Assembly (NCBI RefSeq): GCF_037975245.1
Contig: NC_092563.1
Location: 17,721,594 to 17,785,593, forward strand
DNA: 64,000 bases
Origin: Apostichopus japonicus
Taxonomy: Eukaryota; Echinodermata; Holothuroidea; Aspidochirotida; Stichopodidae
Reading direction: 5' to 3'
Shown here: in pieces, positions 28,047 through 55,234 of the stretch
Numbering within the stretch: the first letter of the stretch is position 1
How the letters are laid out: every line of letters begins with the position of its first letter
The notes under the pieces: generated by a model
Database searches by the model: none
Told to the model about the DNA's origin: nothing
Seen by the model: only the letters and a program-made list of their open reading frames with translations
Made by a program: the position numbers and the translations under genes

Positions 28047-28065
28047 AGCTTGCTCTATGTATGTG

Positions 28066-39161: not shown

Positions 39162-39220
39162 AAAAAGCATCAGACTTTTCATTTGAGGGTCGCGGGTTCG
39201 AGTCCCTCGTCGGGTGGCTA
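39162..39220 (+). pseudogene. tRNA-Lys fragment (3' two thirds)
   Basis: Starts near the anticodon arm; the loop reads CTTTTCA, so the anticodon is retained but the stem is broken. B box intact. The 5' part is replaced by unrelated sequence. Confidence 0.7.
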
Positions 39221-39311
39221 CAATTATTTTCTGTGTTGTTCTTTTCACCATCTTTTCTGAAAGTATCGGCTTAACAAGGATGATAAAGTTATTTTGTATA
39301 CAAGCATCTGA

Positions 39312-39384
39312 GCCCGATTAGCTCAGTCGGTAGAGCATCAGACTTTTAATCTCAGGGTCGCAGGTTCGAGTCCCTCTTCGGGTG
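39312..39384 (+). tRNA. tRNA-Lys(UUU), variant
   Basis: Anticodon stem has a C-C mismatch (AATCTCA); T arm GCAGG/CCCTC has two mismatches; T run follows. Confidence 0.75.
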
Positions 39385-39484
39385 GCTACAATATTTTTTC
39401 TATGTTATGTTGTTCTTACCTTCATCCTTTCTGAAAGTATCGGTCAAAGAGGGTGATAAAGAAATTTTGTATCAAAACATCTCA

Positions 39485-39557
39485 GCCCGGTTAGCTCAGT
39501 CGGTAGAGCATCAGACTTTTAATCTGAGGGTCGCGGATTCGAGTGCCTCATCGGGCG
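39485..39557 (+). tRNA. tRNA-Lys(UUU), variant T arm
   Basis: T arm reads GCGGATTCGAGTGCCTC, weakening the B box and stem; rest normal. Confidence 0.7.
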
Positions 39558-39652
39558 TCTACAATTATTTTCTGTGTTGTTCTTTTCACCATCTTTTCTG
39601 AAAGTATCGGCTTAACAAGGATGATAAAGTTATTTTGTATACAAGCATCTGA

Positions 39653-39725
39653 GCCCGATTAGCTCAGTCGGTAGAGCATCAGACTTTTAATCTGAGGGTC
39701 GCGGGTTCGAGTCCCTCATCGGGCG
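39653..39725 (+). tRNA. tRNA-Lys(UUU), array consensus
   Basis: Acceptor GCCCGAT/ATCGGGC fully paired, A box TAGCTCAGTCGG, B box GGTTCGAGTCC, G discriminator. Confidence 0.93.
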
Positions 39726-39820
39726 GCTACAATTATTTTCTGTGTTGTTCTTTTCACCATCTTTTCTGAAAGTATCGGCTTCACAAGGATGATAAAGTTA
39801 TTTTGTATACAAGCATCTGA

Positions 39821-39893
39821 GCCCGATTAGCTCAGTCGGTAGAGCATCAGACTTTTAATCTGAGGGTCGCGGGTTCGAGTCCCTCATCGGGCG
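39821..39893 (+). tRNA. tRNA-Lys(UUU), array consensus
   Basis: Identical to the copy at 39653. Confidence 0.93.
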
Positions 39894-39988
39894 GCTACAA
39901 TTATTTTCTGTGTTGTTCTTTTCACCATCTTTTCTGAAAGTATCGGCTTAACAAGGATGATAAAGTTATTTTGTATACAAGCATCTGA

Positions 39989-40061
39989 GCCCGATTAGCT
40001 CAGTCGGTAGAGCATCAGACTTTTAATCTCAGGTTTGCAGGTTCGAGTCCCTCTTCGGGTG
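39989..40061 (+). tRNA. tRNA-Lys(UUU), variant
   Basis: CTCAGGTTTGCAGG in the variable/T region; anticodon and T stems each mismatched. Confidence 0.7.
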
Positions 40062-40161
40062 GCTACAATATTTTTTCTATGTTATGTTGTTCTTACCTTC
40101 ATCTTTTCTGAAAGTATCGGTCAAAGAGGGTGATAAAGAAATTTTGTATCAAAACATCTCA

Positions 40162-40234
40162 GCCCGGTTAGCTCAGTCGGTAGAGCATCAGACTTTTAAT
40201 CTGAGGGTCGCGGGTTCGAGTCCCTCATCGGGTG
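40162..40234 (+). tRNA. tRNA-Lys(UUU)
   Basis: Acceptor GCCCGGT/ATCGGGT has G-U wobbles; internal boxes intact. Confidence 0.9.
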
Positions 40235-40336
40235 GCTACAATATTTTTTTCTATGTTATGTTGTTCTTACATTCATCTTTTCTGAAAGTATCGGTCAAAG
40301 AAGGGTGATAAAGAAATTTTGTATACAAGCATCTGA

Positions 40337-40409
40337 GCCCGATTAGCTCAGTCGGTAGAGCATCAGACTTTTAATCTGAGGGTCGCGGGTTCGAGTCCCT
40401 CATCGGGCG
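40337..40409 (+). tRNA. tRNA-Lys(UUU), array consensus
   Basis: Same sequence as the copy at 39653. Confidence 0.93.
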
Positions 40410-40504
40410 GCTACAATTATTTTCTGTGTTGTTCTTTTCACCATCTTTTCTGAAAGTATCGGCTTCACAAGGATGATAAAGTTATTTTGTATACAAGCAT
40501 CTGA

Positions 40505-40577
40505 GCCCGATTAGCTCAGTCGGTAGAGCATCAGACTTTTAATCTCAGGGTCGCAGGTTCGAGTCCCTCTTCGGGTG
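40505..40577 (+). tRNA. tRNA-Lys(UUU), variant
   Basis: Matches the copy at 39312: anticodon stem C-C mismatch, GCAGG T arm. Confidence 0.75.
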
Positions 40578-40677
40578 GCTACAATATTTTTTCTATGTAA
40601 TGTTGTTCTTACCTTTATCCTTTCTGAAAGTATCGGTCAAAGAGGGTGATAAAGAAATTTTGTATCAAAACATCTCA

Positions 40678-40750
40678 GCCCGGTTAGCTCAGTCGGTAGA
40701 GCATCAGACTTTTAATCTGAGGGTCGCGGGTTCGAGTCCCTCATCGGGCG
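40678..40750 (+). tRNA. tRNA-Lys(UUU)
   Basis: GCCCGGT acceptor with one G-U wobble; boxes intact. Confidence 0.9.
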
Positions 40751-40846
40751 TCTACAATTATTTTCTGTGTTGTTCTTTTAATCATCTTTTCTGAAAGTAT
40801 TTGGCTTAACAAGGATGATAAAGTTATTTTGTAGTAAATCATCTGA

Positions 40847-40919
40847 GCCCGATTAGCTCAGTCGGTAGAGCATCAGACTTTTAATCTGAGGGTCGCGGGT
40901 TCGAGTCCCTCATCGGGCG
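40847..40919 (+). tRNA. tRNA-Lys(UUU), array consensus
   Basis: Consensus gene; 5' spacer differs (gtagtaaatcatctga). Confidence 0.93.
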
Positions 40920-41014
40920 GCTACAATTATTTTCTGTGTTGTTCTTTTCACCATCTTTTCTGAAAGTATCGGCTTAACAAGGATGATAAAGTTATTTTGT
41001 ATACAAGCATCTGA

Positions 41015-41087
41015 GCCCGATTAGCTCAGTCGGTAGAGCATCAGACTTTTAATCTCAGGTTTGCAGGTTCGAGTCCCTCTTCGGGTG
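41015..41087 (+). tRNA. tRNA-Lys(UUU), variant
   Basis: Same CTCAGGTTTGCAGG variant as the copy at 39989. Confidence 0.7.
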
Positions 41088-41187
41088 GCTACAATATTTT
41101 TTCTATGTTATGTTGTTCTTACCTTCATCTTTTCTGAAAGTATCGGTCAAAGAGGGTGATAAAGAAATTTTGTATCAAAACATCTCA

Positions 41188-41260
41188 GCCCGGTTAGCTC
41201 AGTCGGTAGAGCATCAGACTTTTAATCTGAGGGTCGCGGGTTCGAGTCCCTCATCGGGCG
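41188..41260 (+). tRNA. tRNA-Lys(UUU)
   Basis: GCCCGGT acceptor; otherwise consensus. Confidence 0.9.
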
Positions 41261-41355
41261 GCTACAATTATTTTCGGTGTTGTTCTTTTAATCATCTTTT
41301 CTTAAAGTATCGGCTTAACAAGGATGATAAAGAAATTTTGTATCAAAACATCTGA

Positions 41356-41428
41356 GCCCGATTAGCTCAGTCGGTAGAGCATCAGACTTTTAATGTGAGG
41401 GTCGCGGGTTCGAGTCCCTCATCGGGTG
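41356..41428 (+). tRNA. tRNA-Lys(UUU), variant
   Basis: AATGTGA in the anticodon 3' strand adds a mismatch; terminal G-U wobble. Confidence 0.8.
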
Positions 41429-41528
41429 GCTACAATTTTTTTCTATGTTATGTTGTTCTTACATTCATCTTTTCTGAAAGTATCGGTCAAAGAAGGGTGA
41501 TAAAGAAATTTTGTATACAAGCATCTGA

Positions 41529-41601
41529 GCCCGATTAGCTCAGTCGGTAGAGCATCAGACTTTTAATCTGAGGGTCGCGGGTTCGAGTCCCTCATCGGCC
41601 G
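41529..41601 (+). tRNA. tRNA-Lys(UUU), variant acceptor
   Basis: 3' acceptor strand ATCGGCC leaves one mismatch; last full copy before the LINE insertion. Confidence 0.85.
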
Positions 41602-41663
41602 GCTACAATTATTTTCTGTGTTATTCTTTTAATCATCTTTTCTGAAAGTATCGGCTTAACAAG

Positions 41664-42415
41664 TTTTATTAACAAGCTACTAAGTTTTTAGGTGTTTATA
41701 TTGATAATAAGCTTTCGTGGCATGAGCACATTTCTACAGTATGCATGCAGGAAAGCAGCGAAAAGCGTTGGGATTTTATCAAAGTTGAAATTTCTCCTAC
41801 CAGAGCGCATATTAAAAAATCTCTCCACACAAACTTTGGTCGTTCCACACATCCCATATTGTTCAATTATCTGGTCCGGCACGTCAGAAACCAATCTTCG
41901 TCCTCTTATTATTCTCCAAACGAAAGCCATGCGCCACATTTCACGTGTTGCACCTCGTGAACAAACAAATCAACTTTTCAAGAATCTCAATTTATTAAAA
42001 GTTACCGACATTTTTCGTGTAAATCTTGCCACGTTTGCATATAAGGCATGGAATGGTTTATTGCCTAACACATTTCATGATTTTTTAACTAGTAACAGTG
42101 TTATACATCACCACAACACACGGAATGCTGATAATGCACATTACTTTTCTTATAAAACATCAATTGGGAGGCTTCGTCTTAGAAATCGTGCAATAAGACA
42201 TGGAATTCCATAACAGAGAGTTTCAAAACCAAAGTATCCAGTAAAATATTCAAAAAGCATCTGACCAAAGACGTTATATCCAGTTATTAATAAGTCATCC
42301 ATTCATTTGCACGATAACAAATTATTATCGTAAATATTATCACCATATATTGTAACACTTCACATTGTAACATTTATGTGAAAAAACAAATAAATGAATG
42401 AATGAATGAATATAT
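41664..42415 (+). mobile_element. LINE 3' fragment in tRNA spacer
   Basis: Encodes the ORF2 C-terminus of the family at 36.5 kb: KFLGVYIDNKLSWHEHIS across a frame change, HIPYCSIIWSGTSETNL, MRHISRVAPREQTNQLF and FAYKAWNGLLPNTFHDF. Ends in an (AATG)n-like tail. Begins after spacer text 'ggcttaacaag', so it is 5' truncated and sits between two tRNA units. Confidence 0.88.
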
Positions 42416-42592
42416 AGTATTCATTGATTGTCGAATTATTCTATTTTGTATTGTTATGTAAATACATTTCTTCTTTCCTTTATACAGGGAGTCTTCTACT
42501 TTGTTAAGCTGTTGTACGCTTTTTGGAAGACTTCCTTCACTCTGTAAATTTACACGTGAAAAACAAATAAATAAATCAAATCAAATCAAATC
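42416..42592 (+). mobile_element. Second LINE 3' end in tRNA spacer
   Basis: Only the 3' region: stem-loop gggagtcttctac…ggaagacttcc (42487-42536), then aaataaat and (CAAAT)n tail running into spacer tcttttctgaaagtatcggt. Confidence 0.75.
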
Positions 42593-42651
42593 TTTTCTGA
42601 AAGTATCGGTCAAAGAAGGGTGATAAAGAAATTTTGTATCAAAACATCTGA

Positions 42652-42693
42652 GCCCGATTAGCTCAGTCGGTAGAGCATCAGACTTTTAATCTG
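42652..42693 (+). pseudogene. tRNA-Lys 5' half
   Basis: Ends after the anticodon arm (TTTTAATCTG), then 'catcaga'-type duplications and the CATA microsatellite. A and anticodon regions intact, B box absent. Confidence 0.85.
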
Positions 42694-42791
42694 CATCAGA
42701 CATCTGCATCAGAATCTGCATCAGAGCATCAGACATACAATGTACATACATACAATGTACATACATATATACATACATACAATATGTACCT

Positions 42792-42838
42792 TACAATACA
42801 ATACATACAATATGTACATACATACATACATACATACA

Positions 42839-42870
<32 letters not shown>

Positions 42871-43357
42871 CACACACACACATACATACATACATACATA
42901 CATACACACACACACATACATACATACATACATACACACATACGCACATACATACATACATACATACATACATACATACATACATACATACATACATACA
43001 TACATACATACATACATACATACATACATACATACATACATACATACATACATACATACATACATACATACATACATACATACATACATACATACATACA
43101 TACATACATACATACATACATGCATACACGCATACACGCATACACGCATACACGCATACACGCATACACGCATACACGCATACACGCATACACGCATACA
43201 CGCATACACGCATACATACATACATACATACATACATACATACATACATACATACATACATACATACATACATACATACATACATACATACATACATACA
43301 TACATACATACATACATACATACATACATACATACATACATACATACATACATACAT
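42792..43357. repeat. (CATA)n microsatellite with CACG-variant core
   Basis: About 560 bp of CATA units, with CA-rich imperfections at 42868-42945 and a homogeneous stretch of CATACACG units at 43121-43212. Long open frames across it in both strands arise from the 4-base unit having no stop. Confidence 0.97.
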
Positions 43358-43359
43358 AC

Positions 43360-44082
43360 CTTTAATGAAGTGACGATTAAAAAGTGTTTGACTATCATTG
43401 TCAACAATCAGGGTATTACTAAAGATAGGTTGATTGAGGATGTCTTCTCTGGTCTCTGGTAGCCAGAAACGGCCTTGAATTAGCCGATCCCATGCTAACA
43501 TGAGTTCACAGTAATACGGGCTTAGCTTATGAACAGACTTGCGGTTAGGAGTAATTTGAAAGATACCACGCCCAAGGCTCATATCTTCATACATATTCAA
43601 AAAATACAACATTAATTTTTGTAATTTAATATTAATGTTATTGCTTAATATCTTACTACAAAATTTAATTCTAAGAGCATCTCTTGTTAATTCAATGTCG
43701 CTCAAACTGAATCCCCCTCTGTCGATTGGTAAAAGCAAGTTAAGATACTTAATAGAAGGTTTTTTACCTCTCCAGATAAAATCGACTACACTCTGACGCA
43801 ATGTGGTGATAACCCAATCAGGGATTGGTAAAACAGTGGTCACATATACTAAGCGAGTTACGATGAGCGAATTTATAATGAGAGATTTACCCTTAAAAGA
43901 TAATTTTCTACCTTTCCAGGTATTTAGTAATTTACGGCAGGAGGTAACTTTTTTCTTCCAATTTTCTTTTTCGATTGACTTTTTATCGTTACCAATAGCA
44001 ACACCTAATACAGTAATGAAGTCTTTCCTCACAGGAAAGTCGAAATTGCTGGGATTAACATGGCTGCACCGAATGCACCGAA
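43360..44082 (-). mobile_element. L1/Tx1-like LINE fragment
   Basis: Minus-strand ORF2 C-terminal part: TVLGVAIGNDKK, NWKKKVTSCRKLLNTWKGRK, LSFKGKSLIINSLIVTRLVY, VDFIWRGKKPSIKYLNLLL and GGFSLSDIELTRDALRIKFC. This order is typical of the L1/Tx1 group, unlike the other LINEs here. It is truncated at both ends; its downstream side runs directly into the microsatellite. Confidence 0.8.
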
Positions 44083-44086
44083 TGCA

Positions 44087-44121
44087 AAAGTCTGATGCTC
44101 TACCGACTGAGCTAATCGGGC
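44087..44121 (-). pseudogene. tRNA-Lys 5' half, opposite strand
   Basis: Minus-strand GCCCGATTAGCTC… to the anticodon loop CTTTT, then 'gcattcggtgcattcggt' and LINE. With 42652-42693 it gives two 5' halves facing each other. Confidence 0.85.
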
Positions 44122-44136
44122 TCAGATGCTTGTATA

Positions 44137-44260
44137 CAAAATAACTTAATTAAAAAATAACTTAATTAACAAATTAACTTAACAAAATTAACTTAATTTA
44201 CAAAATAACTTAACAAAATTAACTTAATTTACAAAATAACTTAATTAAAAAAATAACTAA
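44137..44260. repeat. AT-rich minisatellite grown from tRNA spacer
   Basis: Units like 'acaaaataacttaatt' derive from the spacer text tacaaaataacttt and precede the LINE fragment. Confidence 0.7.
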
Positions 44261-44261
44261 A

Positions 44262-44739
44262 TTAAATGATATTATAAGGCTACAACTTGCTGTATTTACG
44301 TATAAAGCATGGCATGGGCTACTTCCGGGTTCCTTTCATAATTTCTATACAATTAATGTAGAATTATACAATTATAATACCCGAAATAGACAAAATGCTC
44401 ATTGCAACTTCTATCACACGAAATTAGGTACACGCAGCTTCCGCAACCGTGCAACTAAGTTATGGAACTCATTAAGCAATACCGTTAAATCTAAGGCTAC
44501 AAAGAATTCATTTAAGAAATGTTTAAAAAAAGAATTGATATCATCATATTAAATTATGTAAATGAGTTATTTACTTCGGCAGTTTCTGTACATTATGTAA
44601 CCAACATTCAATTTGCATTTATTAATTAATTTTTTTCTTTATGGAGTCTTCCACTTTGTTAAGCTTTTAAGCTTTATGGAAGACTTCCCTCCGCTTTGTA
44701 CTTCTGTGGAAAAACAAATAAATGAAAATGAACTTTATC
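44262..44739 (+). mobile_element. Third LINE 3' fragment in tRNA spacer
   Basis: Encodes FTYKAWHGLLPGSFHNF, NYNTRNRQNAHCNF and FRNRATKLWNSLSNTVK with a proper TAA (~44550), then a stem-loop at 44641-44690 and an A-rich tail. Flanks read 'aaaataactt' and 'aactttatca', an overlap of aactt that fits a short target duplication. Confidence 0.85.
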
Positions 44740-44804
44740 ACCCTTGTTAAGCCGATACTTTCAGAAAAGATGATTAAAAGAACAACACAGAAAATAATTG
44801 TAGC

Positions 44805-44877
44805 CGCCCGATGAGGGACTCGAACCCGCGACCCTCAGATTAAAAGTCTGATGCTCTACCGACTGAGCTAACCGGGC
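44805..44877 (-). tRNA. tRNA-Lys(UUU)
   Basis: GCCCGGT acceptor (one G-U), boxes intact. Confidence 0.9.
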
Positions 44878-44978
44878 TGAGATGTTTTGATACAAAATTT
44901 CTTTATCACCCTTCTTTGACCGATACTTTCAGAAAAGATGAAGGTAAGAACAACATAACATAGAAAAAATATTGCAGC

Positions 44979-45051
44979 CACCCGATGAGGGACTCGAACC
45001 CGCGACCCTCAGATTAAAAGTCTGATGCTCTACCTACTGAGCTAATCGGGC
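44979..45051 (-). tRNA. tRNA-Lys(UUU)
   Basis: D loop AGTAGG instead of AGTCGG; G1-U72 wobble. Confidence 0.87.
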
Positions 45052-45146
45052 TCAGATGATTTACTACAAAATAACTTTATCACACTTGTTTCGCCGATAT
45101 TTTCAGAAAAGATGGTGAAAAGAACAACACAGAAAATAATTGTAGC

Positions 45147-45219
45147 CACCCGATGAGGCACTCGAATCCGCGACCCTCAGTTTAAAAGTCTGATGCTCTA
45201 CCGATTGAGCTAACCGGGC
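45147..45219 (-). tRNA. tRNA-Lys(UUU), degenerate
   Basis: AAACTGA anticodon stem (A-A mismatch) and GCGGATTCGAGTGCCTC T arm; likely a weak or dead copy. Confidence 0.65.
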
Positions 45220-45320
45220 TGAGATGTTTTGATACAAAATTTCTTTATCACCCTTCTTTGACCGATACTTTCAGAAAAGATGAAGGTAAGAACAACATAA
45301 TATAGAAAAAATATTGTAGC

Positions 45321-45393
45321 CACCCGATGTGGGACTCGAACCCGCGACCCTCAGATTAAAAGTCTGATGCTCTACCGACTGAGCTAATCGGGC
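45321..45393 (-). tRNA. tRNA-Lys(UUU)
   Basis: T stem GCGGG/CCCAC (C-A mismatch); boxes intact. Confidence 0.88.
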
Positions 45394-45488
45394 TCAGATG
45401 CTTGTATACAAAATAACTTTATCATCCTTGTTAAGCCGATACTTTCAGAAAAGATGATTAAAAGAACAACACAGAAAATAATTGTAGC

Positions 45489-45561
45489 CGCCCGATGTGG
45501 GACTAGAACCCGCGACCCTCAGATTAAAAGTCTGATGCTCTACCGACTGAGCTAATCGGGC
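45489..45561 (-). tRNA. tRNA-Lys(UUU), B-box variant
   Basis: B box GGTTCTAGTCC: the invariant CG becomes CT. Confidence 0.75.
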
Positions 45562-45662
45562 TCAGATGTTTTGATACAAAATTTCTTTATCACCCTTCTT
45601 TGACCGACACTTTCAGAAAAGATGAAGGTAAGAACAACATAACATAGAAAAAATATTGTAGC

Positions 45663-45735
45663 CACCCGATGAGGGACTCGAACCCGCGACCCTCAGATTA
45701 AAAGTCTGATGCTCTACCGACTGAGCTAACCGGGC
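45663..45735 (-). tRNA. tRNA-Lys(UUU)
   Basis: GCCCGGT/ATCGGGT acceptor, two wobbles; boxes intact. Confidence 0.88.
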
Positions 45736-45836
45736 TGAGATGTTTTGATACAAAAGTTCTTTATCACCCTTCTTATACCGATACTTTCAGAAAAGATGAA
45801 GGTAAGAACAACATAACATAGAAAAAATATTGTAGC

Positions 45837-45909
45837 CACCCGATGTGGGACTCGAACCCGCGACCCTCAGATTAAAAGTCTGATGCTCTACCGACTGAGC
45901 TAATCGGGC
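45837..45909 (-). tRNA. tRNA-Lys(UUU)
   Basis: CCCAC T-stem class, terminal wobble. Confidence 0.88.
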
Positions 45910-46004
45910 TCAGATGCTTGTATACAAAATAACTTTATCATCCTTGTTAAGCCGATACTTTCAGAAAAGATGATTAAAAGAACAACACAGACAATATTTG
46001 TAGC

Positions 46005-46077
46005 CGCCCGATGAGGGACTCGAACCCGCGACCCTCAGATTAAAAGTCTGATGCTCTACCGATTGAGCTAACCGGGC
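46005..46077 (-). tRNA. tRNA-Lys(UUU)
   Basis: A box has AATCGG for AGTCGG; near T run lost (attgtc). Confidence 0.83.
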
Positions 46078-46178
46078 TGTGATGTTTTGATACAAAATTT
46101 CTTTATCACCCTTCTTATACCGATACTTTCAGAAAAGATGAAGGTAAGAACAACATAACATAGGAAAAATATTGTAGC

Positions 46179-46251
46179 CACCCGATGAGGGACTCGAACC
46201 CGCGACCCTCAGATTAAAAGTCTGATGCTCTACCGACTGAGCTAATCGGGC
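46179..46251 (-). tRNA. tRNA-Lys(UUU)
   Basis: Consensus apart from G1-U72. Confidence 0.9.
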
Positions 46252-46346
46252 TCAGATGATTTACTACAAAATAACTTTATCATCCTTGTTAAGCCGATAC
46301 TTTCAGAAAAGATGATTAAAAGAACAACACAGAAAATAATTGTAGC

Positions 46347-46419
46347 CGCCCGATGAGGGACTCGAACCCGCGACCCTCAGATTAAAAGTCTGATGCTCTA
46401 CCGACTGAGCTAACCGGGC
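46347..46419 (-). tRNA. tRNA-Lys(UUU)
   Basis: GCCCGGT class, TTTT terminator present. Confidence 0.9.
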
Positions 46420-46520
46420 TGAGATGTTTTGATACAAAATTTCTTTATCACCCTTCTTATACCGATACTTTCAGAAAAGATGAAGGTAAGAACAACATAA
46501 CATAGAAAAAATATTGTAGC

Positions 46521-46593
46521 CACCCGATGTGGGACTCGAACCCGCGACCCTCAGATTAAAAGTCTGATGCTCTACCGACTGAGCTAATCGGGC
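46521..46593 (-). tRNA. tRNA-Lys(UUU)
   Basis: CCCAC class; first unit of the 1,370-bp duplicated segment. Confidence 0.88.
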
Positions 46594-46689
46594 TCAGATG
46601 ATTTACTGCGAAAACCTTTATCACCCTTGTTTGTCCGATACTTTCAGAAAAAAAATGATGAAAAGAACAACACAGAAAATAATTGTAGC

Positions 46690-46762
46690 CGCCCGATGAG
46701 GCACTCGAATCCGCGACCCTCAGTTTAAAAGTCTGATGCTCTACCGACTGAGCTAACCGGGC
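46690..46762 (-). tRNA. tRNA-Lys(UUU), degenerate
   Basis: AAACTGA stem and GATTCGAGTGCC T arm, as at 45147. Confidence 0.65.
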
Positions 46763-46863
46763 TGAGATGTTTTGATACAAAATTTCTTTATCACCCTTCT
46801 TTGACCGATACTTTCAGAAAAGATGAAGGTAAGAACAACATAACATAGAAAAAATATTGTAGC

Positions 46864-46936
46864 CACCCGATGTGGGACTCGAACCCGCGACCCTCAGATT
46901 AAAAGTCTGATGCTCTACCGACTGAGCTAATCGGGC
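46864..46936 (-). tRNA. tRNA-Lys(UUU)
   Basis: CCCAC class. Confidence 0.88.
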
Positions 46937-47031
46937 TCAGATGCTTGTATACAAAATAACTTTATCATCCTTGTTAAGCCGATACTTTCAGAAAAGATGA
47001 TTAAAAGAACAACACAGACAATAATTGTAGC

Positions 47032-47104
47032 CGCCCGATGAGGGACTCGAACCCGCGACCCTCAGATTAAAAGTCTGATGCTCTACCGATTGAGCTAACC
47101 GGGC
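47032..47104 (-). tRNA. tRNA-Lys(UUU)
   Basis: AATCGG D loop; near T run lost. Confidence 0.83.
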
Positions 47105-47205
47105 TCAGATGTTTTGATACAAAATTTCTTTATCACCCTTCTTATACCGATACTTTCAGAAAAGATGAAGGTAAGAACAACATAACATAGGAAAAATATT
47201 GTAGC

Positions 47206-47278
47206 CACCCGATGAGAAACTCGAACCCGCGACCCTCAGATTAAAAGTCTGATGCTCTACCGACTGAGCTAATCGGGC
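47206..47278 (-). tRNA. tRNA-Lys(UUU), broken T stem
   Basis: 3' T strand TTTCTC instead of TCCCTC; two extra mismatches and damaged B box. Confidence 0.68.
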
Positions 47279-47373
47279 TCAGATGATTTACTACAAAATA
47301 ACTTTATCATCCTTGTTAAGCCGATACTTTCAGAAAAGATGATTAAAAGAACAACACAGAAAATAATTGTAGC

Positions 47374-47446
47374 CGCCCGATGAGGGACTCGAACCCGCGA
47401 CCCTCAGATTAAAAGTCTGATGCTCTACCGACTTAGCTAACCGGGC
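47374..47446 (-). tRNA. tRNA-Lys(UUU), A-box variant
   Basis: TAGCTAAGTCGG in place of TAGCTCAGTCGG. Confidence 0.83.
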
Positions 47447-47547
47447 TGAGATGTTTTGATACAAAATTTCTTTATCACCCTTCTTATACCGATACTTTCA
47501 GAAAAGATGAAGGTAAGAACAACATAACATAGAAAATTTTTTGTAGC

Positions 47548-47620
47548 CACCCGATGAGGGACTCGAACCCGCGACCCTCAGATTAAAAGTCTGATGCTCT
47601 ACCGACTGAGCTAATCGGGC
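47548..47620 (-). tRNA. tRNA-Lys(UUU)
   Basis: Consensus apart from G1-U72; followed by a six-T run. Confidence 0.9.
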
Positions 47621-47716
47621 TCAGATGATTTACTGCGAAAACCTTTATCACCCTTGTTTGTCCGATACTTTCAGAAAAAAAATGATGAAAAGAACAACAC
47701 AGAAAATAATTGTAGC

Positions 47717-47789
47717 CACCCGATGAGGGACTCGAATCCGCGACCCTCAGTTTAAAAGTCTGATGCTCTACCGACTGAGCTAACCGGGC
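47717..47789 (-). tRNA. tRNA-Lys(UUU), variant
   Basis: AAACTGA stem and GCGGATTCGAGTCCCTC T arm. Confidence 0.7.
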
Positions 47790-47890
47790 TGAGTTGTTTT
47801 GATACAAAATTTCTTTATCACCCTTCTTTGACCGATACTTTCAGAAAAGATGAAGGTAAGAACAACATAACATAGAAAAAATATTGTAGC

Positions 47891-47963
47891 CACCCGATGT
47901 GGGACTCGAACCCGCGACCCTCAGATTAAAAGTCTGATGCTCTACCGACTGAGCTAATCGGGC
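47891..47963 (-). tRNA. tRNA-Lys(UUU)
   Basis: CCCAC class; first unit of the second 1,370-bp copy. Confidence 0.88.
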
Positions 47964-48059
47964 TCAGATGATTTACTGCGAAAACCTTTATCACCCTTGT
48001 TTGTCCGATACTTTCAGAAAAAAAATGATGAAAAGAACAACACAGAAAATAATTGTAGC

Positions 48060-48132
48060 CGCCCGATGAGGCACTCGAATCCGCGACCCTCAGTTTAAAA
48101 GTCTGATGCTCTACCGACTGAGCTAACCGGGC
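48060..48132 (-). tRNA. tRNA-Lys(UUU), degenerate
   Basis: Duplicate of the degenerate copy at 46690. Confidence 0.65.
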
Positions 48133-48233
48133 TGAGATGTTTTGATACAAAATTTCTTTATCACCCTTCTTTGACCGATACTTTCAGAAAAGATGAAGGT
48201 AAGAACAACATAACATAGAAAAAATATTGTAGC

Positions 48234-48306
48234 CACCCGATGTGGGACTCGAACCCGCGACCCTCAGATTAAAAGTCTGATGCTCTACCGACTGAGCTAA
48301 TCGGGC
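48234..48306 (-). tRNA. tRNA-Lys(UUU)
   Basis: CCCAC class; duplicate of 46864. Confidence 0.88.
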
Positions 48307-48401
48307 TCAGATGCTTGTATACAAAATAACTTTATCATCCTTGTTAAGCCGATACTTTCAGAAAAGATGATTAAAAGAACAACACAGACAATAATTGTAG
48401 C

Positions 48402-48474
48402 CGCCCGATGAGGGACTCGAACCCGCGACCCTCAGATTAAAAGTCTGATGCTCTACCGATTGAGCTAACCGGGC
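48402..48474 (-). tRNA. tRNA-Lys(UUU)
   Basis: AATCGG D loop; duplicate of 47032. Confidence 0.83.
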
Positions 48475-48575
48475 TGAGATGTTTTGATACAAAATTTCTT
48501 TATCACCCTTCTTATACCGATACTTTCAGAAAAGATGAAGGTAAGAACAACATAACATAGGAAAAATATTGTAGC

Positions 48576-48648
48576 CACCCGATGAGAAACTCGAACCCGC
48601 GACCCTCAGATTAAAAGTCTGATGCTCTACCGACTGAGCTAATCGGGC
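48576..48648 (-). tRNA. tRNA-Lys(UUU), broken T stem
   Basis: Carries the same TTTCTC lesion as 47206. Confidence 0.68.
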
Positions 48649-48743
48649 TCAGATGATTTACTACAAAATAACTTTATCATCCTTGTTAAGCCGATACTTT
48701 CAGAAAAGATGATTAAAAGAACAACACAGAAAATAATTGTAGC

Positions 48744-48816
48744 CGCCCGATGAGGGACTCGAACCCGCGACCCTCAGATTAAAAGTCTGATGCTCTACCG
48801 ACTGAGCTAACCAGGC
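48744..48816 (-). tRNA. tRNA-Lys(UUU), acceptor variant
   Basis: GCCTGGT acceptor adds a mismatch or wobble; A box is normal, unlike its duplicate at 47374. Confidence 0.82.
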
Positions 48817-48917
48817 TGAGATGTTTTGATACAAAATTTCTTTATCACCCTTCTTATACCGATACTTTCAGAAAAGATGAAGGTAAGAACAACATAACAT
48901 AGAAAATTTTTTGTAGC

Positions 48918-48990
48918 CACCCGATGAGGGACTCGAACCCGCGACCCTCAGATTAAAAGTCTGATGCTCTACCGACTGAGCTAATCGGGC
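48918..48990 (-). tRNA. tRNA-Lys(UUU)
   Basis: Duplicate of 47548, with the same six-T terminator. Confidence 0.9.
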
Positions 48991-49086
48991 TCAGATGATT
49001 TACTGCGAAAACCTTTATCACCCTTGTTTGTCCGATACTTTCAGAAAAAAAATGATGAAAAGAACAACACAGAAAATAATTGTAGC

Positions 49087-49159
49087 CACCCGATGAGGGA
49101 CTCGAATCCGCGACCCTCAGTTTAAAAGTCTGATGCTCTACCGACTGAGCTAACCGGGC
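49087..49159 (-). tRNA. tRNA-Lys(UUU), variant
   Basis: Duplicate of 47717. Confidence 0.7.
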
Positions 49160-49260
49160 TGAGTTGTTTTGATACAAAATTTCTTTATCACCCTTCTTTG
49201 ACCGATACTTTCAGAAAAGATGAAGGTAAGAACAACATAACATAGAAAAAATATTGTAGC

Positions 49261-49333
49261 CACCCGATGTGGGACTCGAACCCGCGACCCTCAGATTAAA
49301 AGTCTGATGCTCTACCGACTGAGCTAATCGGGC
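49261..49333 (-). tRNA. tRNA-Lys(UUU)
   Basis: CCCAC class. Confidence 0.88.
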
Positions 49334-49428
49334 TCAGATGATTTACTACAAAATAACTTTATCATCCTTGTTAAGCCGATACTTTCAGAAAAGATGATTA
49401 AAAGAACAACACAGAAAATAATTGTAGC

Positions 49429-49501
49429 CGCCCGATGGGGGACTCGAACCCGCGACCCTCAGATTAAAAGTCTGATGCTCTACCGACTGAGCTAACCGGG
49501 C
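49429..49501 (-). tRNA. tRNA-Lys(UUU)
   Basis: 3' T strand CCCCC (C-C at the usual mismatch); GCCCGGT acceptor. Confidence 0.87.
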
Positions 49502-49602
49502 TGAGATGTTTTGATACAAAATTTCTTTATCACCCTTCTTTGACCGACACTTTCAGAAAAGATGAAGGTAAGAACAACATAACATAGCAAAAATATTGCA
49601 GC

Positions 49603-49675
49603 CACCCGATGAGGGACTCGAACCCGCGACCCTCAGATTAAAAGTCTGATGCTCTACCGACTGGGCTAACCGGGC
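49603..49675 (-). tRNA. tRNA-Lys(UUU), A-box variant
   Basis: TAGCCCAGTCGG D arm; duplicate at 50629 lacks this change. Confidence 0.83.
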
Positions 49676-49776
49676 TGAGATGTTTTGATACAAAATTTCT
49701 TTATCACCCTTCTTTGACCGATACTTTCAGAAAGGATGAAGGTAAGAACAACATAACATAGAAAAAATATTGTAGC

Positions 49777-49849
49777 CACCCGATGTGGGACTCGAACCCG
49801 CGACCCTCAGATTAAAAGTCTGATGCTCTACCGACTGAGCTAATCGGGC
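49777..49849 (-). tRNA. tRNA-Lys(UUU)
   Basis: CCCAC class. Confidence 0.88.
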
Positions 49850-49944
49850 TCAGATGCTTGTATACAAAATAACTTTATCATCCTTGCTAAGCCGATACTT
49901 TCAGAAAAGATGATTAAAAGAACAACACAGACAATAATTGTAGC

Positions 49945-50017
49945 CGCCCGATGAGGGACTCGAACCCGCGACCCTCAGATTAAAAGTCTGATGCTCTACC
50001 GACTGAGCTAATCGGGC
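49945..50017 (-). tRNA. tRNA-Lys(UUU), array consensus
   Basis: Gene matches the consensus exactly; near T run lost. Confidence 0.91.
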
Positions 50018-50112
50018 TCAGATGATTTACTACAAAATAACTTTATCACACTTGTTTGGCCGATATTTTCAGAAAAGATGGTGAAAAGAACTACACAGAA
50101 AATACTTGTAGC

Positions 50113-50185
50113 CTCCCAATGAGGGACTCGAACCCGCGACCCTCAGATTAAAAGTCTGATGCTCTACCGACTGAGCTAACCGGGC
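50113..50185 (-). tRNA. tRNA-Lys(UUU), acceptor variant
   Basis: 3' strand ATTGGGAG gives two acceptor changes. Confidence 0.78.
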
Positions 50186-50286
50186 TCAGATGTTTTGATA
50201 CAAAATTTCTTTATCACCCTTCTTATACCGATACTTTCAGAAAAGATGAAGGTAAGAACAACATAACATAGGAAAAATATTGTAGT

Positions 50287-50359
50287 CACCCGATGAGGGA
50301 CTCGAACCCGCGACCCTCAGATTAAAAGTCTGATGCTCTACCGACTGAGCTAATCGGGC
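50287..50359 (-). tRNA. tRNA-Lys(UUU)
   Basis: Consensus apart from G1-U72. Confidence 0.9.
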
Positions 50360-50454
50360 TCAGATGATTTACTACAAAATAACTTTATCATCCTTGTTAA
50401 GCCGATACTTTCAGAAAAGATGATTAAAAGAACAACACAGACAATATTTGTAGC

Positions 50455-50527
50455 CGCCCGATGAGGGACTCGAACCCGCGACCCTCAGATTAAAAGTCTG
50501 ATGCTCTACCGACTGAGCTAACCGGGC
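50455..50527 (-). tRNA. tRNA-Lys(UUU)
   Basis: GCCCGGT class; near T run lost. Confidence 0.88.
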
Positions 50528-50628
50528 TGAGATGTTTTGATACAAAATTTCTTTATCACCCTTCTTTGACCGACACTTTCAGAAAAGATGAAGGTAAGAA
50601 CAACATAACATAGCAAAAATATTGCAGC

Positions 50629-50701
50629 CACCCGATGAGGGACTCGAACCCGCGACCCTCAGATTAAAAGTCTGATGCTCTACCGACTGAGCTAACCGGG
50701 C
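50629..50701 (-). tRNA. tRNA-Lys(UUU)
   Basis: GCCCGGT/ATCGGGT acceptor; spacer 'attgctgcaa'-type shared with 49603. Confidence 0.88.
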
Positions 50702-50802
50702 TGAGATGTTTTGATACAAAATTTCTTTATCACCCTTCTTTGACCGATACTTTCAGAAAGGATGAAGGTAAGAACAACATAACATAGAAAAAATATTGTA
50801 GC

Positions 50803-50875
50803 CACCCGATGTGGGACTCGAACCCGCGACCCTCAGATTAAAAGTCTGATGCTCTACCGACTGAGCTAATCGGGC
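50803..50875 (-). tRNA. tRNA-Lys(UUU)
   Basis: CCCAC class; duplicate of 49777. Confidence 0.88.
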
Positions 50876-50970
50876 TCAGATGCTTGTATACAAAATAACT
50901 TTATCATCCTTGCTAAGCCGATACTTTCAGAAAAGATGATTAAAAGAACAACACAGACAATAATTGTAGC

Positions 50971-51043
50971 CGCCCGATGAGGGACTCGAACCCGCGACCC
51001 TCAGATTAAAAGTCTGATGCTCTACCGACTGAGCTAATCGGGC
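50971..51043 (-). tRNA. tRNA-Lys(UUU), array consensus
   Basis: Exact consensus gene; duplicate of 49945. Confidence 0.91.
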
Positions 51044-51138
51044 TCAGATGATTTACTACAAAATAACTTTATCACACTTGTTTGGCCGATATTTTCAGAA
51101 AAGATGGTGAAAAGAACTACACAGAAAATACTTGTAGC

Positions 51139-51211
51139 CTCCCAATGAGGGACTCGAACCCGCGACCCTCAGATTAAAAGTCTGATGCTCTACCGACTGA
51201 GCTAACCGGGC
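51139..51211 (-). tRNA. tRNA-Lys(UUU), acceptor variant
   Basis: Same ATTGGGAG end as 50113. Confidence 0.78.
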
Positions 51212-51312
51212 TCAGATGTTTTGATACAAAATTTCTTTATCACCCTTCTTATACCGATACTTTCAGAAAAGATGAAGGTAAGAACAACATAACATAGGAA
51301 AAATATTGTAGC

Positions 51313-51385
51313 CACCCGATGAGGGACTCGAACCCGCGACCCTCAGATTAAAAGTCTGATGCTCTACCGACTGAGCTAATCGGGC
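51313..51385 (-). tRNA. tRNA-Lys(UUU)
   Basis: Consensus apart from G1-U72. Confidence 0.9.
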
Positions 51386-51480
51386 TCAGATGATTTACTA
51401 CAAAATAACTTTATCATCCTTGTTAAGCCGATACTTTCAGAAAAGATGATTAAAAGAACAACACAGAAAATAATTGTAGC

Positions 51481-51553
51481 CGCCCGATGAGGGACTCGAA
51501 CCCGCGACCCTCAGATTAAAAGTCTGATGCTCTACCGACTGAGCTAATCGGGC
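51481..51553 (-). tRNA. tRNA-Lys(UUU), array consensus
   Basis: Exact consensus with TTTT downstream. Confidence 0.93.
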
Positions 51554-51648
51554 TCAGATGCTTGTATACAAAATAACTTTATCATCCTTGTTAAGCCGAT
51601 ACTTTCAGAAAAGATGATTTAAAGAACAACACAGACAATAATTGTAGC

Positions 51649-51721
51649 CGCCCGATGAGGGACTCGAACCCGCGACCCTCAGATTAAAAGTCTGATGCTC
51701 TACCGATTGAGCTAACCGGGC
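51649..51721 (-). tRNA. tRNA-Lys(UUU)
   Basis: AATCGG D loop; both the near T run and the later TTTT are lost. Confidence 0.82.
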
Positions 51722-51822
51722 TCAGATGTTTTGATACAAAATTTCTTTATCACCCTTCTTATACCGATACTTTCAGAAAAGATGAAGGTAAGAACAACAT
51801 AACATAGGAAAAATTTTGTAGC

Positions 51823-51895
51823 CACCCGATGAGGGACTCGAACCCGCGACCCTCAGATTAAAAGTCTGATGCTCTACCGACTGAGCTAATCGGGC
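51823..51895 (-). tRNA. tRNA-Lys(UUU)
   Basis: Consensus apart from G1-U72. Confidence 0.9.
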
Positions 51896-51990
51896 TCAGA
51901 TGATTTACTACAAAATAACTTTATCATACTTGTTAAGCCGATACTTTCAGAAAAGATGATTAAAAGAACAACACAGAAAATAATTGTAGC

Positions 51991-52063
51991 CGCCCGATGT
52001 GGGACTAGAACCCGCGACCCTCAGATTAAAAGTCTGATGCTCTACCGACTGAGCTAACCGGGC
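51991..52063 (-). tRNA. tRNA-Lys(UUU), B-box variant
   Basis: GGTTCTAGTCC B box, as at 45489. Confidence 0.75.
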
Positions 52064-52164
52064 TGAGATGTTTTGATACAAAATTTCTTTATCACCCTTC
52101 TTATACCGATACTTTCAGAAAAGATGAAGGTAAGAACAACATAACATAGAAAATTTTTTGTAGC

Positions 52165-52237
52165 CGCCCGATGAGGGACTCGAACCCGCGACCCTCAGAT
52201 TAAAAGTCTGATGCTCTACCGACTGAGCTAATCGGGC
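52165..52237 (-). tRNA. tRNA-Lys(UUU), array consensus
   Basis: Exact consensus gene with a six-T run. Confidence 0.93.
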
Positions 52238-52334
52238 TCAGATGATTTACTGCGAAAACCTTTATCACCCTTGTTTGTCCGATACTTTCAGAAAAAAAAA
52301 TGATGAAAAGAACAACACAGAAAATAATTGTAGC

Positions 52335-52407
52335 CACCCGATGAGGCACTCGAATCCGCGACCCTCAGTTTAAAAGTCTGATGCTCTACCGACTGAGCTT
52401 AGCGGGC
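52335..52407 (-). tRNA. tRNA-Lys(UUU), degenerate
   Basis: AAACTGA stem, GATTCGAGTGCC T arm and CGCTAAGCTC at the acceptor/D junction. Confidence 0.6.
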
Positions 52408-52508
52408 TGAGATGTTTTGATACAAAATTTCTTTATCACCCTTCTTTGACCGACACTTTCAGAAAAGATGAAGGTAAGAACAACATAATATAGAAAAAAT
52501 ATTGTAGC

Positions 52509-52581
52509 CACCCGATGTGGGACTCGAACCCGCGACCCTCAGATTAAAAGTCTGATGCTCTACCGACTGAGCTAATCGGGC
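52509..52581 (-). tRNA. tRNA-Lys(UUU)
   Basis: CCCAC class. Confidence 0.88.
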
Positions 52582-52676
52582 TCAGATGCTTGTATACAAA
52601 ATAACTTTATCATCCTTGTTAAGCCGATACTTTCAGAAAAGATGATTAAAAGAACAACACAGACAATAATTGTAGC

Positions 52677-52749
52677 CGCCCGATGAGGGACTCGAACCCG
52701 CGACCCTCAGATTAAAAGTCTGATGCTCTACCGATTGAGATAACCGGGC
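52677..52749 (-). tRNA. tRNA-Lys(UUU), A-box variant
   Basis: TATCTCAATCGG: two changes in the A box. Confidence 0.77.
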
Positions 52750-52850
52750 TGAGATGTTTTGATACAAAATAACTTTATCACCCTTCTTATACCGATACTT
52801 TCAGAAAAGATGAAGGTAAGAACAACATAACATAGAAAAAATATTGTAGC

Positions 52851-52923
52851 CACCCGATGAGGGACTCGAACCCGCGACCCTCAGATTAAAAGTCTGATGC
52901 TCTACCGACTGAGCTAATCGGGC
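52851..52923 (-). tRNA. tRNA-Lys(UUU)
   Basis: Consensus apart from G1-U72. Confidence 0.9.
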
Positions 52924-53018
52924 TCAGATGATTTACTACAAAATAACTTTATCATCCTTGTTAAGCCGATACTTTCAGAAAAGATGATTAAAAGAACAAC
53001 ACAGAAAATAATTGTAGC

Positions 53019-53091
53019 CGCCCGATGAGGGACTCGAACCCGCGACCCTCAGATTAAAAGTCTGATGCTCTACCGACTGAGCTAATCGGGC
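53019..53091 (-). tRNA. tRNA-Lys(UUU), array consensus
   Basis: Exact consensus gene. Confidence 0.93.
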
Positions 53092-53186
53092 TCAGATGCT
53101 TGTATACAAAATAACTTTATCATCCTTGTTAAGCCGATACTTTCAGAAAACATGATTTAAAGAACAACACAGACAATAATTGTAGC

Positions 53187-53259
53187 CGCCCGATGAGGGA
53201 CTCGAACCCGCGACCCTCAGATTAAAAGTCTGATGCTCTACCGATTGAGCTAACCGGGC
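53187..53259 (-). tRNA. tRNA-Lys(UUU)
   Basis: AATCGG D loop; spacer gatttaaag as at 51613. Confidence 0.82.
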
Positions 53260-53360
53260 TCAGATGTTTTGATACAAAATTTCTTTATCACCCTTCTTAT
53301 ACCGATACTTTCAGAAAAGATGAAGGTAAGAACAACATAACATAGGAAAAATATTGTAGC

Positions 53361-53433
53361 CACCCGATGAGGGACTCGAACCCGCGACCCTCAGATTAAA
53401 AGTCTGATGCTCTACCGACTGAGCTAATCGGGC
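53361..53433 (-). tRNA. tRNA-Lys(UUU)
   Basis: Consensus apart from G1-U72. Confidence 0.9.
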
Positions 53434-53528
53434 TCAGATGATTTACTACAAAATAACTTTATCATCCTTGTTAAGCCGATACTTTCAGAAAAGATGATTA
53501 AAAGAACAACACAGAAAATAATTGTAGC

Positions 53529-53601
53529 CGCCCGATGTGGGACTAGAACCCGCGACCCTCAGATTAAAAGTCTGATGATCTACCGACTGAGCTAACCGGG
53601 C
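53529..53601 (-). tRNA. tRNA-Lys(UUU), B-box and D-stem variant
   Basis: GGTTCTAGTCC plus GATC for GAGC in the D stem. Confidence 0.68.
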
Positions 53602-53702
53602 TGAGATGTTTTGATACAAAATTTCTTTATCACCCTTCTTATACCGATACTTTCAGAAAAGATGAAGGTAAGAACAACATAATATAGAAAAAATATTGTA
53701 GC

Positions 53703-53775
53703 CACCCGATGTGGGACTCGAACCCGCGACCCTCAGATTAAAAGTCTGATGCTCTACCGACTGAGCTAATCGGGC
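53703..53775 (-). tRNA. tRNA-Lys(UUU)
   Basis: CCCAC class. Confidence 0.88.
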
Positions 53776-53870
53776 TCAGATGCTTGTATACAAAATAACT
53801 TTATCATCCTTGTTAAGCCGATACTTTCAGAAAAGATGATTAAAAGAACAACACAGACAATAATTGTAGC

Positions 53871-53943
53871 CGCCCGATGAGGGACTCGAACCCGCGACCC
53901 TCAGATTAAAAGTCTGATGCTCTACCGATTGAGATAACCGGGC
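53871..53943 (-). tRNA. tRNA-Lys(UUU), A-box variant
   Basis: TATCTCAATCGG, as at 52677. Confidence 0.77.
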
Positions 53944-54044
53944 TGAGATGTTTTGATACAAAATTTCTTTATCACCCTTCTTATACCGATACTTTCAGAA
54001 AAGATGAAGGTAAGAACAACATAACATAGAACAAATATTGTAGC

Positions 54045-54117
54045 CACCCGATGAGGGACTCGAACCCGCGACCCTCAGATTAAAAGTCTGATGCTCTACC
54101 GACTGAGCTAATCGGGT
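54045..54117 (-). tRNA. tRNA-Lys(UUU)
   Basis: First base A with U72: the terminal pair is restored as A-U. Confidence 0.87.
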
Positions 54118-54212
54118 TCAGATGATTTATTACAAAATAACTTTATCATCCTTGTTAAGCCGATACTTTCAGAAAAGATGATTAAAAGAACAACACAGAA
54201 AATAATTGTAGC

Positions 54213-54285
54213 CGCCCGATGAGGGACTCGAACCCGCGACCCTCAGATTAAAAGTCTGATGCTCTACCGACTGAGCTAACCGGGC
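54213..54285 (-). tRNA. tRNA-Lys(UUU)
   Basis: GCCCGGT class. Confidence 0.9.
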
Positions 54286-54386
54286 TCCGATGTTTTGATA
54301 CAAAATTTCTTTATCACCCTTCTTATACCGATACTTTCAGAAAAGATGAAGGTAAGAACAACATAACATAGAAAAAATATTGTAGC

Positions 54387-54459
54387 CACCCAATGTGGGA
54401 CTCGAACCCGCGACCCTCAGATTAAAAGTCTGATGCTCTACCGACTGAGCTAACCGGGC
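54387..54459 (-). tRNA. tRNA-Lys(UUU)
   Basis: ATTGGGTG end: its U pairs otherwise wobbled G differently; CCCAC T strand. Confidence 0.83.
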
Positions 54460-54560
54460 TCCGATGTTTTGATACAAAATTTCTTTATCACCCTTCTTAT
54501 ACCGATACTTTCAGAAAAGATGAAGGTAAGAACAACATAACATAGAAAAAATATTGTAGC

Positions 54561-54633
54561 CACCCGATGTGGGACTCGAACCCGCGACCCTCAGATTAAA
54601 AGTCTGATGCTCTACCGACTGAGCTAATCGGGC
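54561..54633 (-). tRNA. tRNA-Lys(UUU)
   Basis: CCCAC class; last minus-strand copy before the second inversion. Confidence 0.88.
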
Positions 54634-54689
54634 TCAGATGATTTACTGCGAAACCCTTTATCACCCTTGTTTGACCGATATTTTCACCC

Positions 54690-54735
54690 TCTTACTTTTT
54701 GATTTGATTTGCACGTGAAAAACAAAAATAAAGAA
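54690..54735. mobile_element. LINE 3'-tail remnant at inversion junction
   Basis: 'gatttgatttgcacgtgaaaaacaaa' in part matches the LINE tail at 42553-42590, partly in inverted order. Confidence 0.55.
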
Positions 54736-54756
54736 ATTTTGTATCAAAACATCTGA

Positions 54757-54829
54757 GCCCGATTAGCTCAGTAGGTAGAGCATCAGACTTTTAATCTGAG
54801 GGTCGCGGGTTCGAGTCCCTCATCGGGCG
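54757..54829 (+). tRNA. tRNA-Lys(UUU)
   Basis: AGTAGG D loop, otherwise exact consensus. Confidence 0.9.
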
Positions 54830-54924
54830 GCTACAATCATTTTCTGTGTTGTTCTTTTCACCATCTTTTATGAAAATTTTGGCCAAACAAGGATGATAAA
54901 GTTATTTTGTATACAAGCATCTGA

Positions 54925-54997
54925 GCCCGATTAGCTCAGTCGGTAGAGCATCAGACTTTTAATCTGAGGGTCGCGGGTTCGAGTCCCTCATCGGGTG
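54925..54997 (+). tRNA. tRNA-Lys(UUU)
   Basis: Consensus apart from G1-U72. Confidence 0.9.
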
Positions 54998-55098
54998 GCT
55001 ACAATACTTTTTATATGTAATGTTGTTCTTACCTTCATCTTTTCTTAAAGTATCGGTCAAAGAAGGGTTATAAAGTTATTTTGTATCAATGCATTTGA

Positions 55099-55171
55099 GC
55101 CCGGTTAGCTCAGTCGGTAGAGCATCAGACTTTTAATCTGAGGGTCGCGGGTTCGAGTCCCTCATCGGGCG
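55099..55171 (+). tRNA. tRNA-Lys(UUU)
   Basis: GCCCGGT class; last copy of the array. Confidence 0.9.
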
Positions 55172-55234
55172 ACTACAATATTTTTCTATATTATGTTGTT
55201 CTTTTCACCATCTTTTGTGAAAGTATCGGCCAAA

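Follow-up and report, generated by a model that had tools for sequence, protein, structure and literature searches.

Bermudez-Santana and colleagues treat tRNA genes (tDNAs) as clustered when they lie less than 1000 nt apart, set homogeneous clusters apart as a class, and name local duplication as the prime suspect for tDNA clusters (PMC2888827). Clusters of fifty and more members are reported from Nematostella and teleosts (PMC2888827), and plants carry tandem arrays of 27 tRNA-Pro genes in Arabidopsis and 28 tRNA-Ile genes in maize, as well as clusters of non-identical tRNA copies with 2 to 110 members (PMC12652284). The subject of the present analysis is a 64-kb stretch of the Apostichopus japonicus genome (contig NC_092563.1, positions 17,721,594 to 17,785,593 of the forward strand; "the window", in which positions are counted from its first nucleotide) that carries 75 full-length tRNA-Lys(UUU) copies in tandem. 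The array fits the known kind of homogeneous tDNA cluster, and the favoured explanation, with a probability of roughly 0.65, is that a tRNA-Lys(UUU) gene was amplified locally into an array with satellite-like behaviour today.

Like the homogeneous clusters of eukaryotes, in which copies of the same isoacceptor lie less than 1000 nt apart and mostly parallel (PMC2888827), the array is built from a single isoacceptor, with the anticodon loop CTTTTAA in 75/75 copies and periods of 168-175 bp within blocks. Strictly, it makes up two clusters, the gap between full-length copies at 41601-44805 being wider than 1000 nt. Nematostella and zebrafish, whose tDNA pairs are mostly heterogeneous according to that study (PMC2888827), differ from this one-isoacceptor array with its two-type 170-bp monomer, whereas the plant tRNA-Pro and tRNA-Ile arrays also hold one isoacceptor in tandem, those two being smaller than the array described here (PMC12652284). 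An initial annotation, made from the DNA letters, had placed the array far beyond ordinary tRNA clustering, which is too strong given the cluster sizes cited above for Nematostella, teleosts and plants.

Other systems share single traits with the locus. The tRNA-Cys cluster of Arabidopsis has one isoacceptor, a pseudogene at its edge, marks of mobile elements and a variable copy number, but is made of four units of ~0.42 kb, with two of four genes silent, and is called epigenetically silenced (PMC10701932). Entamoeba arrays are likewise tandem tRNA units, but with up to five tRNA genes per unit and microsatellite-like spacers, and they hold almost all tRNA genes of that genome (PMC2652664). 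Satellites related to tRNA or derived from short interspersed nuclear elements (SINEs) have monomers of 150-180 or 300-360 bp that include a tRNA-related segment; those described are SINE-derived (PMC10702118), whereas no SINE parent was found within the 64-kb window. Some transposons target small-RNA genes, such as Dada and also Dewa, found in tRNA-Leu spacers (PMC3706591), and a long interspersed nuclear element (LINE) sits inside a tRNA copy here as well, as a single insertion from which no target specificity can be claimed. The special features of the array are its two-type, nucleosome-sized monomer, a common mismatch at T-stem pair 50:64, and the LINE within an anticodon loop. No paper naming this array was found in a literature search that had subscription papers mostly outside its reach.

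Copy number, identity and layout

Calling of tRNA genes with ARAGORN over the entire window gave 73 tRNA-Lys(ttt) genes and no other tRNA type. The Rfam tRNA model RF00005, applied at its gathering cut-off of 29 bits, gave 76 matches, namely the 73 ARAGORN genes, two more full-length copies (45147-45219, 50.0 bits; 52335-52407, 43.1 bits) and one half copy. The 75 full-length coordinates used throughout are those of the Rfam set, and a chance origin of these matches is excluded because their E-values run from 2.4e-13 to 8.1e-6. From left to right, a plus-strand block of 14 copies is followed by 58 minus-strand copies and then by 3 more in plus orientation. The earlier claims of 75 full-length copies at 39312-55171, of three strand blocks and of a single isoacceptor are thus all borne out. 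With three part copies included, the array extends over about 39166-55270, as judged by Tandem Repeats Finder (TRF) and by reading of the sequence, and its continuity is broken up by LINE pieces. Variation is considerable, with 29 distinct tRNA bodies among the 75 copies and 57 distinct sequences among the 72 units that have a neighbour on the same strand.

Repeat architecture and homogenisation

The period of these 72 units is 168 bp (30 units), 174 bp (30), 173 bp (5), 169 bp (5), 170 bp (1) or 175 bp (1). Clustering on the spacer yields two types, A and B, of 36 units each and in largely alternating order, and TRF recovers the A-B dimer as a period of 341-342 bp. The array contains eight maximal exact direct repeats, 314-645 bp long, of which seven belong to the minus block and one to the first of the two plus blocks; their offsets of 1026, 1194, 1370, 1538 and 5134 bp correspond to 6, 7, 8, 9 and 30 units. 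Minus units are closer to their nearest neighbours (mean distance 0.006) than plus units are (0.022). Exact duplications at such offsets are the pattern expected from unequal exchange followed by local homogenisation, a mechanism that we infer to have acted here. An exact-match scan found no inverted exact repeat of at least 300 bp, and the strand switch is therefore not a recent copy of one block. The array has the head-to-tail monomers (58.2 repeat copies by TRF in the minus block) and the exact duplicated segments that mark a satellite under concerted homogenisation, so that, among the roles initially suggested, a satellite containing a tRNA, with ~170-bp monomers in a largely alternating dimer, is the best fit. 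A search of the genome (671.6 Mb in 35 contigs) listed 22 matches, of which 18 lie in the array and four, in C15, C3, C16 and C17, match the tRNA part elsewhere at 80-90% identity over 52-71 nt; the known 58 minus-block copies and the second plus block are absent from the matches listed, so silence elsewhere says little.

Constraint on the tRNA body and its relaxation

Comparison of the A and B consensus sequences points to selection on the tRNA while the two types diverged. The spacer differs at 19/95 aligned positions (25/106 columns with gaps included) and the tRNA at 2/73 (Fisher p = 0.0007), and both tRNA differences retain standard pairing (A6/G6 opposite U67; C72/U72 opposite G1). Within types the contrast is weaker. 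Diversity in tRNA and spacer is 0.0386 and 0.0787 in one type (permutation p = 0.023) and 0.0287 and 0.0468 in the other (p = 0.10), tRNA and spacer do not differ in the proportion of columns that segregate (p = 0.12 and 0.29), and the tRNA is not the quietest 73-column window in either type (rank 30/168 and 13/174). Between-type differences (2 in the tRNA, 19 in the spacer) set against within-type alleles (33 and 69) give p = 0.036. The units are kin to one another rather than independent, and the p-values of all these tests of diversity and divergence are therefore optimistic. The kind of change within the tRNA is also suggestive, as stems are variable at 19/42 columns and loops at 6/31, and 14 of the 21 stem alleles outside pair 50:64 break their pair. 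Clear compensating changes were absent from the pair table of the 75 copies, which holds one A1-U72 pair, a single step from the common G1-U72. Our reading is that the tRNA was formerly constrained and that this constraint has relaxed since amplification.

Several points weigh against relaxation. Types A and B were assigned on spacer columns of the very alignment that was tested. When all units are pooled, diversity is threefold lower in the tRNA (0.042) than in the spacer (0.133; permutation p = 0.0006) and the tRNA window is the 6th lowest of 174, so that the tRNA body may still be under constraint; much of this pooled contrast is due to the difference between types. Pairing is retained by 7 of the 21 stem alleles, where 17.9% would be expected (p = 0.067), which hints that some selection persists. 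Gene conversion confined to the tRNA could equally yield the A/B pattern and is the main alternative to past constraint. Finally, promoter and terminator signals are widely kept, with a consensus A box in 72/75 copies, a B box in 63/75 and a nearby T-run (at least four T starting within 21 nt, taken as terminator) in 64/75.

Transcription, pairing and alternative explanations

All three signals are present together in 52/75 copies, and 42/75 copies have them along with every stem pair except 50:64. Judged by these features, up to about 42 of the 75 copies could be transcribed by RNA polymerase III (Pol III). Pair 50:64 is C.U in 58 copies, C.A in 16 and C.C in 1, and is standard in none, so that no copy has all stems paired. 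The other stem pairs are all intact in 55/75 copies and broken further in the remaining 20. Among 21 tRNA genes of E. coli K-12 used as a control (a small, bacterial set with 14 distinct sequences), 4/21 have one T-stem mismatch, each at another pair, and 0/21 have one at 50:64. A verdict of non-function from the 50:64 mismatch taken by itself was dropped on account of the four mismatched controls. RNA folding was given no weight, the cloverleaf lying 2.2-10.9 kcal/mol above the minimum in 75/75 copies in a comparison that has no control fold of a working tRNA.

These results bear directly on the proposal, also made in the initial annotation, that the locus is a working dosage array in which many transcribed copies provide much of the tRNA-Lys(UUU) in the cell, for instance to serve the synthesis of a Lys-rich product. 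Such a role is unlikely, though it draws on the invariant anticodon loop, the kept signals, the low pooled diversity of the tRNA and the controls, which indicate that a single T-stem mismatch is not disqualifying. It would be open to at most the 42 copies with all signals and all pairs but 50:64, and it is opposed by the lack of standard pairing at 50:64 in every copy and in none of the (bacterial, few) controls, by the 20 copies with further broken pairs, by the weak contrast between tRNA and spacer within types, and by stems that vary more than loops with no clear compensating change in the pair table. A related and clearly less probable idea is that the array was founded by, and spread, a variant of tRNA-Lys(UUU) whose 50:64 position is permanently without a pair but which was still selected while the spacer types diverged; dozens of copies would then express a specialised tRNA, possibly with a role outside translation or charged only under certain conditions.

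It is very unlikely that the array serves instead as a chromatin or tRNA-fragment platform, that is, as a domain boundary binding Pol III factors or as a source of short RNAs outside translation. Wide retention of the promoter boxes despite the loss of 50:64 pairing would suit this role, and a human tRNA repeat at 1q23.3 has been proposed as a boundary element (PMC4041453); however, the box columns are not more conserved than the remaining tRNA (variable at 10/23 and 15/50, respectively). There is an even slimmer chance that the locus is the remnant tandem array of a tRNA-bearing mobile element, either a SINE or a terminal-repeat retrotransposon in miniature (TRIM) of the Helenus type. Long terminal repeats (LTRs) of molluscan Helenus have been aligned with Aplysia tRNA-Lys-TTT, and tandem arrays are noted for the fish member LTR-11_DR (PMC10886601). 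Nevertheless, none of the 162 BLAST hits obtained with the two unit types lies elsewhere in the window, and reading of units by eye, with no formal search run, revealed no primer-binding site, paired LTR ends or tail, nor the 4-bp target duplication that goes with Helenus; moreover, many of the tRNA-like sequences in Helenus have an anticodon at odds with the isotype (PMC10886601), whereas a full-length Lys body carries a Lys anticodon here. An origin from Helenus or another TRIM was set aside on the lack of such anatomy by eye and of copies elsewhere in the window. Least probable of all is an assembly artefact, in which case the real array could be far longer, could be shorter or could lack the inversion. 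Tandem repeats are difficult to assemble and exact duplicated segments are present, but the 57 distinct units of 72 speak against simple assembly stutter, LINE sequence interrupts the array, and 671.6 Mb in 35 contigs would point to long-read data.

Local amplification of a tRNA-Lys(UUU) gene into a satellite-like array would have begun with tandem duplication of one gene, after which the daughter spacers A and B would have diverged by ~20% while the tRNA bodies stayed nearly alike. Unequal exchange could then have increased the number of A-B dimers, at offsets of 6 to 9 units and, once, of 30, and LINEs would have inserted into the array. Inversion of the middle segment may have produced the convergent switch at 42.7-44.1 kb, where genes of the plus and minus blocks point towards each other, and the divergent switch between minus and plus genes at 54.7 kb. 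The copies beyond the ~42 would be drifting pseudogenes, and the whole array is probably redundant for translation. The locus would thus be a compact, well-marked case of a tRNA gene becoming a satellite. Its 29 tRNA bodies and many distinct units allow copy-by-copy tests of expression, and older constraint between A and B can be measured against weaker constraint within types at one locus. It also carries a warning that one locus can inflate tRNA gene counts.

Strand switches, insertions and broken copies

A single inversion of the middle segment would account for both switches, and retroelement pieces occur at or near each of them (Table 1). At the convergent switch, the 5' junction of the minus-strand LINE falls within the anticodon loop of a tRNA copy on the same strand, which it splits after nt 36, and beyond the (TACA)n tract on the LINE 3' side lies a broken tRNA half of the opposite strand. 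The insertion at 42652-44121 was possibly coupled to the inversion. In this interval the LINE is flanked by opposite-strand tRNA halves, with stuttered GCATCAGA-like repeats at the 3' junction. Its best match in PDB is 8c8j, "RNA-directed DNA polymerase" (E 5.9e-8), followed by four LINE-1 ORF2 sequences (E 1.2e-7 to 2.3e-7). The term "L1-like" is used loosely, because the LINE at 37 kb likewise matches LINE-1 ORF2 in PDB. The latter element (36714-39004, minus strand) adjoins the left edge of the array, and its endonuclease-like frame and its reverse transcriptase frame occupy different open stretches.

Table 1. Components of the tRNA-Lys(UUU) array and sequences that interrupt it (positions within the window)
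Feature	Position	Strand	Evidence
Left array edge: tRNA copy without its 5' part, and its spacer	39166..39311	+	TRF start at 39166; sequence reading
Block 1: 14 full-length tRNA-Lys(UUU)	39312..41601	+	ARAGORN, Rfam
LINE 3' part inside a unit spacer, related to the LINE at 36.7-37.3 kb	41664..42597	+	tblastx 58.4% identity over 125 aa; open reading frame; tail read
tRNA-Lys 5' half, broken after about nt 42	42652..42693	+	BLAST 100% over 42 nt; Rfam 31.7 bits over 42652-42735
(TACA)n microsatellite, 617 bp, on the 3' side of the minus-strand LINE	42743..43359	+	TRF
L1-like LINE 3' part	43360..44085	-	Five PDB matches over 43382-44068
tRNA-Lys 5' half (nt 1-36)	44086..44121	-	BLAST 100% over 36 nt
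31-bp minisatellite, resembling an expanded piece of unit spacer (by eye)	44136..44265	-	TRF
Second LINE, 3' part	44260..44732	+	tblastx to other LINEs at 44253-44459; blastn at 44630-44726; open reading frame; end read
Block 2: 58 full-length tRNA-Lys(UUU), two spacer types, exact internal duplications	44805..54633	-	ARAGORN, Rfam
LINE-tail-like 40-bp scrap at the second strand switch	54688..54727	+	By eye; spacer match stops near 54687
Block 3: 3 full-length tRNA-Lys(UUU)	54757..55171	+	ARAGORN, Rfam
Final spacer; array stops about where the next tRNA would start	55172..55270	+	Sequence reading

Other features of the window

A full-length BEL/Pao retrotransposon with one uninterrupted frame of 1900 aa occupies 21651-28939. 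Its LTRs align with 1 mismatch in 375 positions; by eye this falls immediately beyond what is presumed to be the CA terminus, and the actual LTRs may therefore match in full. Inspection by eye also shows a 5-bp duplication flanking the element, which is a young insertion. At 13801-15080 on the minus strand, open stretches of 221 and 225 aa overlap each other, and neither has a Pfam match up to E = 1. Together with the BEL/Pao element, LINE frames and microsatellites give the window a eukaryotic, probably animal character, and TRF reports tandem repeats of ~180 and 144 bp at 2978-3956, the 144-bp repeat with a TGACCTTTGACC-like motif.

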